Under the pieces are notes generated by a model. The model made no database searches and was not told the origin of the DNA. It was given only the letters and a program-made list of their open reading frames with translations. The position numbers and the translations under genes were made by a program. Source: Conexibacter sp. SYSU D00693 (GTDB lineage: Bacteria; Actinomycetota; Thermoleophilia; Solirubrobacterales; Solirubrobacteraceae). From it: DNA of 64,000 nt. Where the stretch lies: the NCBI RefSeq assembly GCF_017084525.1, contig NZ_CP070950.1, positions 2,108,001 to 2,172,000 on the forward strand, given 5' to 3'. Shown here in pieces: positions 11,295 through 63,861 of the stretch. Positions within the stretch are counted from its first letter, which is position 1. Each line of letters starts with the position of its first letter.

Positions 11295-11327
11295 GTGAGA
11301 AGCAGGGGCCTGTCCCCTGCTTCGCAC
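11295..11327. repeat. Palindromic repeat, family A copy 1 (GGGGCCTGTCCCC core)
   Basis: Inverted repeat reading GTG-AGAAGCAGGGG-CCTG-type core and closing with CCCCTGCTTCGCAC. It is the first of two copies between marC and the TetR gene and belongs to the same family as the copies at 11371 and in the array near 62861. It could fold into a hairpin and may serve as a terminator for marC. No transposase is nearby. Confidence 0.85.
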
Positions 11328-11370
11328 GCCCGCCTGCCGCGACGGGTCGCGATGCCGCGTGGGCGCTTGC

Positions 11371-11403
11371 GTGAGAAGAAGGGGACTGTCCCCTTCTTCG
11401 CAC
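11371..11403. repeat. Palindromic repeat, family A copy 2 (GGGGACTGTCCCC core)
   Basis: Inverted repeat GTGAGAAGAAGGGG - ACT - GTCCCCTTCTTCGCAC, with arms of more than ten paired bases. It starts 76 bp after copy 1 and ends just before the TTGACA of the TetR promoter. It is almost identical to the repeated element downstream of marR near 62861, which carries ACA instead of ACT at the centre. Confidence 0.88.
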
Positions 11404-11410
11404 GGCTCGC

Positions 11411-13481: not shown

Positions 13482-13510
13482 GGGTGGTGGGTGCCTGGCA
13501 CCCACCACCC
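13482..13510. repeat. Palindromic repeat, family B (GGTGCCTGGCACC core)
   Basis: Perfect inverted repeat: arm GGGTGGTGGGTGCC, single T, arm GGCACCCACCACCC. The central 13 bp match other copies at 45734, 49993 (degenerate), 50024 and 62398. Lying 11 bp after the MFS stop it could also terminate that transcript, but there is no T tract. Confidence 0.85.
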
Positions 13511-62397: not shown

Positions 62398-62414
62398 AAG
62401 GTGCCTGGCACCTT
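62398..62414. repeat. Family B palindrome between the PLP enzyme and marR
   Basis: AAGGTGCC-T-GGCACCTT, 8-bp arms, with GC before and TCATAG after. A truncated copy of the ATGCAAGGTGCC type palindrome at 50024. It lies 7 bp after the stop codon and could serve as a terminator. Confidence 0.8.
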
Positions 62415-62438: not shown

Positions 62439-62858
62439 GTGGATCCCGGAAGCCTGGCCCGTGAGCTCGACGAGCACCTGCGCGACCTGCAGCGCGTCCT
62501 GCGCCGCGAGGCCGTCTACGGGCTGAGCGTCACCGCCGCCTCCGTCCTCGCTCGCGTCGCGCACGACGGTCCGCTGCGGGTGACCGAGCTCGCCGTTGCC
62601 GAGGAGGTCGCCCAGCCGACGATGACCGCCCTGGTCGGCCGGCTCGAGCAGCGTGGCCTCGTCGCCCGGGAGCCCGACCCGGCCGACGGGCGCGCCGTCC
62701 TCGTCTCCATCACCCGCGAGGGCGGTGAGCGGCTCGCCGTGGTCCGCGAGGCGCGCGAGCACGCGCTGGCCCGCCGCCTCGACCGCCTCGACGGCGAGGA
62801 GCGCGCGGCGCTGACCGCCGCCCTCCCCGCCCTCGGGCACCTGTCCCAGCCCGCCTAG
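62439..62858 (+). CDS. MarR family transcriptional regulator
   Basis: A 139-residue winged-helix regulator. The DNA-binding region is GPLRVTELAVAEEVAQPTMTALVGRLEQRGLVAREPDPADGRAVLVSITREGGERLAVVRE (in parts), with the wing DPADGRAVLV. GTG start is 6 nt after TACATA (62427-62432). Its last codons (from CTCGGGCAC to the TAG) are duplicated, with the stop lost, in each unit of the tandem array that follows. Target genes unknown. Confidence 0.93.
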   Translation: MDPGSLARELDEHLRDLQRVLRREAVYGLSVTAASVLARVAHDGPLRVTELAVAEEVAQPTMTALVGRLEQRGLVAREPDPADGRAVLVSITREGGERLAVVREAREHALARRLDRLDGEERAALTAALPALGHLSQPA

Positions 62859-63092
62859 CGTGCGAAGAAGGGGACAGTCCCCTGGTTCGCCCTCGCCCTC
62901 GGGCGCCTGTCCCAGCCCGCCCCGCGTGCGAAGAAGGGGACAGTCCCCTGGTTCGCCCCCGCCCTCGGGCGCCTGTCCCAGCCCGCCCCGCGTGCGAAGA
63001 AGGGGACAGTCCCCTGGTTCGCCCTCGCCCTCGGGCGCCTGTCCCAGCCCGCCCCGCGTGCGAAGAAGGGGACAGTCCCCTGGTTCGCACTA
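62823..63092. repeat. Tandem array, 66-bp unit, four copies, derived from the marR 3' end plus family A palindrome
   Basis: GTGCGAAGAAGGGG-ACA-GTCCCCTGGTTCG begins at 62860, 62926, 62992 and 63058 (period exactly 66). Between copies the spacer CGCCCTCGGGCGCCTGTCCCAGCCCGCCCCGC repeats. In the first unit the spacer is the marR 3' end, CGCCCTCGGGCACCTGTCCCAGCCCGCCTAGC, so later copies carry three changes, including loss of the TAG. Because 66 is 22 codons, the array is open in several frames. Not a CRISPR: spacers are identical. Confidence 0.93.
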
Positions 63093-63105
63093 GCGTTGGG
63101 TGCCC

Positions 63106-63861
63106 GTGCTGAGGACGGTCCGCGCCACGAGGTACGTCGCACCCCTGCGCGAGGGCGGGTCGATGCCCGCGCTCGTCGAGGCCGACGACGACGGCCTCTA
63201 CGTCGTCAAGCTCCGCGGCGCGGGGCAGGGACGGCTGGCGCTCGTGGCCGAGGTCCTCGCCGGCGAGCTGGCCCGCGCGCTCGACCTCCCGGTGCCCGAG
63301 CTCGTCGTCGCCGACGTCGACACGGAGCTCGCCCGGGCCGAGCCCGACCCGGAGATCCAGGAGCTCGTCCAGGCCAGCGGCGGGACGAACGCCGGGCTGG
63401 ACTTCCTGCCCGGCGCGCTGCCGTACGCGCCGTCGACCGGCCGCCCGCCCGGCCCGGACCTCGCCGCGGCGGTCGTGTGGTTCGACTGCCTCGTGGAGAA
63501 CGTCGACCGCACGCCGCGCAACCCCAACCTCCTGATGTGGCACGGCCGGCTGTGGCTCATCGACCACGGCGCCGCGCTCTTCCGCCAGCACGCCGGGCTG
63601 GACCACGCCGACCCGGCCGCGCCGCTGCCGATGGCCGCCCAGCACGTCCTGCTCGACGCCGCCGGCCCGCTGCCCGACGCGGCGCAGCGCCTCGCGCCCA
63701 AGGTCGACGAGCCGCTGCTGCGCGCGATCGTCGACGCCATCCCGCCGGACTGGTTCGCCGGCGACCCGCCGGAGGCCTACGTCGAGCACCTGCTCGCCCG
63801 CGTCGCCGCGTCGGACGCCTGGACCGCCCACGCCGAGGAGCACCGTGCCCGGCGGCGCTGA
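63106..63861 (+). CDS. HipA-like kinase-fold protein
   Basis: About 251 residues. VVKLRGAGQGRLALVAEVLAGELARALDLPVPELVV resembles the N-lobe of HipA kinases (in parts). The catalytic loop is DCLVENVDRTPRNPNLLMWHG, and the metal motif LIDHGAALF matches the HipA pattern. It is shorter than HipA and lacks its N-terminal domain. GTG at 63106 is 9 nt after TAGCGT (63091-63096), so better than GTG at 63100. In actinobacteria it is paired with the DUF3037 gene that starts before its stop. Not a proven toxin. Confidence 0.82.
   Translation: MLRTVRATRYVAPLREGGSMPALVEADDDGLYVVKLRGAGQGRLALVAEVLAGELARALDLPVPELVVADVDTELARAEPDPEIQELVQASGGTNAGLDFLPGALPYAPSTGRPPGPDLAAAVVWFDCLVENVDRTPRNPNLLMWHGRLWLIDHGAALFRQHAGLDHADPAAPLPMAAQHVLLDAAGPLPDAAQRLAPKVDEPLLRAIVDAIPPDWFAGDPPEAYVEHLLARVAASDAWTAHAEEHRARRR

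Follow-up and report, generated by a model that had tools for sequence, protein, structure and literature searches.

At the right-hand end of the window, the 64,000-nt stretch of DNA analysed here, a gene for a MarR-family regulator (marR) is followed by a tandem array of 66-bp units and then by a gene for a HipA_2-family, kinase-like protein. The features of this region are as follows, with palindromes given without strand:

62400..62412: palindrome GGTGCCTGGCACC of family C, in the spacer that separates marR from the PALP gene (pattern match; 72 genomic copies of the pattern)
62439..62858, + strand: marR-family regulator gene, 139 aa, with its 3' end and TAG stop (62856-62858) within unit 1 (ORF; Pfam MarR/MarR_2, E 1e-13)
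62828..62893, + strand: unit 1, the genuine marR tail and REP 1 (TRF, unit alignment)
62861..62890: REP 1, family A palindrome, core 62870-62882, starting 11 bp past the marR stop (pattern match, consensus)
62894..62959, + strand: unit 2, with CCG at the stop-codon position (TRF, unit alignment)
62927..62956: REP 2, core 62936-62948 (pattern match, consensus)
62960..63025, + strand: unit 3 (TRF, unit alignment)
62993..63022: REP 3, core 63002-63014 (pattern match, consensus)
63026..63091, + strand: unit 4, with the ancestral REP foot TTCGCAC kept at its right end (TRF, unit alignment, consensus)
63059..63090: REP 4, core 63068-63080, right foot complete (pattern match, consensus)
63100..63861, + strand: HipA_2-family kinase-like gene, GTG start 9 bp past REP 4 (Pfam HipA_2, E 3e-19)

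With the family C palindrome upstream and the family A array downstream, marR is flanked on both sides by REP-type palindromes. A third palindrome, GGTGCCWGGCACC, has four copies in the window, at 13490, 45734, 50030 and 62400 (the last just upstream of marR), and 72 genome-wide. The start of the HipA-like gene at 63100 is backed by an N-terminus conserved in relatives (LRTVRATRYV or near). A degenerate fifth unit past 63092 was considered and rejected because its similarity is weak and the DNA there codes for the conserved HipA_2 N-terminus. The nearest marR relative found, identified by ortholog comparison of the C-terminus, is 60% identical, adjoins an MFS gene and lacks the element.

The array was detected by TRF at 62828-63088 (period 66, 4.0 copies, 97% matches, 0% indels, score 494) and is by a wide margin the top-scoring tandem array of the window. 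The preliminary description, made from the sequence, had proposed four 66-bp units that combine a palindrome with the marR tail, and this holds. Each unit consists of the last ~31 bp of marR, the ~30-bp palindrome TGCGAAGAAGGGGACAGTCCCCTGGTTCGC and a few extra bases, and the units lie head-to-tail in direct orientation over 264 bp. The core GGGGACAGTCCCC occurs four times in the array; with one mismatch allowed, the pattern has six matches in the window versus 0.22 expected in shuffles. Unit 1 differs from units 2-4 by three changes common to all three (A>G at unit position 12, T>C at 29 and A>C at 30), and variation within units 2-4 is confined to unit positions 64 and 66. The three common changes had been noted before, but the codon corresponding to the marR stop is CCG in units 2-4, not CCC as previously given. 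Beginning directly past the marR stop, all six frames stay open through the rest of the array, in agreement with the stop-free frames described earlier. A complete REP right end, TTCGCAC, is found only in unit 4; units 1-3 have TTCGCCC at the joint, where microhomology is little or none (at most about 1 nt).

Could the array be an assembly artefact, a repeat collapsed or expanded? This is extremely improbable: the genome is one 4.43-Mb contig, the units can be told apart by their distinguishing bases, and the array is just 264 bp long in a genome that holds many clusters with various periods.

The palindrome belongs to a dispersed family, family A, whose core GGGGACWGTCCCC has 38 copies in the 4.43-Mb single-contig genome; the reversed control has none. 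A consensus built from 33 loci, with one copy counted per tandem array, reads TGCGAAGAA-GGGGACAGTCCCC-TtCTTCgCACg; its left edge is sharp, its right side looser. As single-stranded DNA, individual elements adopt a hairpin fold (z -4.6 to -7.3). A search for other family A copies at gene tails had been suggested in the preliminary description: at 11 family A loci, marR's included, the core begins 6-25 bp past the stop of the upstream gene, and further copies sit just beyond convergent gene ends, with genes placed for these distances by a codon-usage score trained on the window, not by annotation. The marR REP, with its core 11 bp past the stop, is in a typical position for family A. Like REPs, family A is a hairpin-forming palindrome of 20-40 bp with many dispersed copies, mostly extragenic and near gene 3' ends, and it flanks a Y1 tyrosine transposase gene of RAYT type. 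Because of its family copies, its hairpin and the adjacency to a RAYT, the marR palindrome is, judged by these sequence features, a REP in the broad, RAYT-associated sense. That the palindrome is a RAYT-associated REP, and that such arrays are common in the genome, had been missed by the preliminary description.

No GTAG or CGTC tag is present at the edges of the family A consensus. The array units are direct repeats, not the two inverted REPs forming one long hairpin that define a REPIN. Elsewhere, paired family A palindromes 76 bp apart occur at 11305-11404 of the window and at G000:C1:3663393-3663481, with similar intervening sequence, and may possibly represent a dispersed REPIN-like doublet. 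Six same-genus genomes searched contained no family A elements, and a search for the element in 60 relatives returned a single match, and that with a mismatch.

Family A is presumably mobilised by the product of a RAYT gene at G000:C1:3380488-3381219, a prediction based on adjacency. This gene encodes a 243-aa Y1 transposase and has a family A palindrome on both sides, and the right-hand copy supplies the end of the coding sequence itself (C-terminus ARAKQGTVPFFAGR). In NCBIfam, the protein hits REP_Tyr_transpos with E 5.6e-21 (75 bits, slightly below the curated cut-off of 80). No relative with a solved structure was found with phmmer at E 0.001, and a scan of the genome collection with the RAYT protein detected distant relatives only (<=42% identity) and no sister strain. 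In total the genome encodes three RAYTs, and the other two adjoin different palindrome types. The second has GGGGTCWGACCCC, a sequence with 88 genomic copies, on both sides, and the third has on one side AGTGCCTGGCACT, which is near GGTGCCWGGCACC (72 copies), a link by similarity only.

RAYT genes of relatives also have their own adjoining palindromes, which in L168 and L172 stand on either side of the gene. A RAYT from another genus of the family, with 43% identity, adjoins three GGGGACWGTCCCC palindromes (L171:945-1022), so the core recurs with a related RAYT. Four family B REPs, in a tandem array with a 29-bp period, come straight after a RAYT gene at L018:2257-2356; the array starts within the gene's last codons. 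A literature search combining RAYT and Actinobacteria found no paper with both terms.

The marR array very probably arose when a RAYT-associated REP element just after marR was amplified locally in tandem. We propose an order of events, read from one sequence, of insertion, duplication, divergence and amplification. Initially, a family A REP would have inserted 2 bp past the marR stop, as suggested by the genome-wide copies. A 66-bp segment, starting in the marR tail at about 62825-62828 and ending 2 nt into the right foot of the REP, would then have been duplicated in tandem, as the sequence of the units indicates. Because the complete REP right end is found only in unit 4, the right flank of this unit is ancestral and the polarity is fixed; the joint between the truncated REP foot and the marR tail is thus the new junction. 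With microhomology at the joint no longer than about 1 nt, this first duplication more probably arose by a replication error or by end-joining near the hairpin than by slippage between pre-existing repeats. The new copy, without coding constraint, appears to have acquired three substitutions, two of which destroyed the stop. The diverged copy would then have been amplified twice more, giving units 2-4; as a mechanism, slippage or unequal exchange involving the 66-bp homologies would suffice. The substitutions common to units 2-4 imply that one copy diverged first and amplification came after, as the preliminary description had argued.

Alternatively, the RAYT itself could have driven amplification, with the transposase nicking the REP foot and making tandem copies or inserting REP strands beside an existing REP. 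The right duplication boundary does lie <=2 nt from the REP foot, tandem REP arrays are frequent in this genome, and one RAYT gene precedes the 29-bp x4 array. However, every unit at marR contains unique marR sequence, which would not be copied by repeated insertion and which that process therefore fails to explain, and the boundary of a 45-bp family A array reaches beyond the REP end. We consider a direct role of the transposase in amplification rather unlikely, and favor local duplication of the inserted REP together with the gene tail.

A possible effect of the array on its neighbors raises two further readings. The first is a contingency (phase-variable) locus, at which fast change in unit number would switch MarR or the downstream HipA-like protein; the preliminary description had suggested a contingency-type hot spot. 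The 97% identity of the units makes slippage plausible, all frames are open through the array, and the array directly precedes the HipA-like start. However, the unit is a multiple of 3 in length, so frame shifts are impossible, and all extra copies come after the marR stop; a change in unit number thus leaves both the frame and the stop untouched. Nor does unit number affect the spacing between the last REP and the HipA-like start, and the array region has no consensus promoter or intrinsic terminator that we could find. Overall, unit number alters neither frame nor promoter spacing, and the suggestion of a hot spot is unsupported. Read-through of marR by loss of its stop had been expected to append 22-residue repeats; repeats would indeed be appended, but the extension is 485 codons, to 64311, and runs out of frame through the HipA-like gene. 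A phase-variable switch is, in our judgment, very unlikely, although variation in copy number is plausible for an array of 97% identity.

The second possibility is a selected RNA element, in which the REP array stabilises marR mRNA against 3' decay or insulates the HipA-like gene. Strong hairpins do lie directly past the stop codon, in the 3'-end location typical of the whole of family A. Such a location bias would be equally expected if insertions elsewhere were harmful, no terminator-like U tract was found in the array region, and family A is absent from the same-genus relatives. Selection for such a function thus appears quite improbable. Most likely the array that arose by local amplification is a near-neutral spacer between marR and the HipA-like gene, where neutrality is our assumption.

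Tandem REP arrays occur elsewhere in the genome, as read from individual genome stretches. A second family A array has 45-bp units in three copies. Family B forms 19 clusters, with units of, for example, 24, 29, 33, 40, 42, 45 or 54 bp. Several of the family B clusters are intragenic, with the same coding frame on either side and open through the array:

L211:1385-1430, L206:1429-1474, L214:1380-1548, L223:1394-1430 and L204:1740-1956: in-frame family B arrays, in genes for alanine-racemase-like, protein kinase, thioredoxin-NHL, MFS and coiled-coil-like proteins

These arrays add peptides such as GSDPVA. In the racemase-like protein, the stretch DATGSDPVALPDATGSDPVAL lengthens a loop by about 10-13 residues versus ten homologues. 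Within the family B clusters, 27/33 distinct neighbor spacings are divisible by 3 (binomial p 1.4e-8 under independence). The spacings are not independent, since modules of 24 and 21 nt make up many of the arrays, and we rejected them as proof of coding selection. These modules would explain part of the multiple-of-3 spacing and in-frame arrays another part. More broadly, REPs and tandem duplication could together have repeatedly generated repeats in gene tails and, in frame, within proteins of this lineage, with stop loss converting post-stop arrays into in-frame ones, but we regard this as unlikely.

Direct tandem repeats are familiar from other actinobacteria. MIRU and similar minisatellites are direct repeats of ~50-100 bp that occupy short intergenic spacers, overlap gene ends and have open frames. 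The marR array resembles them in layout and is distinguished by a unit built on a RAYT-linked palindrome. RAYT-linked REP families have been described mostly in Proteobacteria.

In their general organization, the elements reported here resemble REP/RAYT systems (PMC2817692; PMC3116915), in which dozens of copies of a ~30-bp palindrome are scattered through the genome, chiefly at the 3' ends of genes, and also flank a Y1 (HUH) transposase gene on both sides; several palindrome families and RAYTs occur per genome. In published cases, REPs sit no more than 20 bp from the 3' end of a gene (PMC3733652). Unlike the described superfamilies, family A has no GTAG or CGTC tag and, among the relatives tested, occurs in this genome alone; untagged REP-like families have been acknowledged (PMC3733652). 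Tandem REPs with flanking sequence also have precedent (PMC3116915). The ordered REP/REPIN clusters of Pseudomonas fluorescens SBW25 consist of near-identical tandem units with flanks, and such clusters also lie beside RAYT genes, but they are mainly inverted REP pairs (REPINs), whereas the marR array is made of single direct REPs with a gene tail (PMC3116915). Intragenic REPs are known as well (PMC3733652). REPs in or overlapping genes, including Rickettsia RPE-4 and RPE-6, are palindromes that occur both at the ends of genes and, in frame, within them, and that sometimes form clusters (PMC3733652); the marR copies differ in lying past the stop, not translated as annotated, and the in-frame cases in this genome belong to family B.

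The marR array is genuine and well resolved, the outcome of REP insertion followed by duplication in place, and belongs to a repeat kind already known. It is a clear example of a gene-end REP insertion seeding a minisatellite, in which one can distinguish the original end of the gene, the units derived from it and the right end that is ancestral. The genome concerned is high in GC, encodes three RAYTs and carries several palindrome families; direct tandem arrays are unusually numerous in it, and some are in frame within genes. The wider interest lies in this abundance of direct REP arrays, in-frame ones included.
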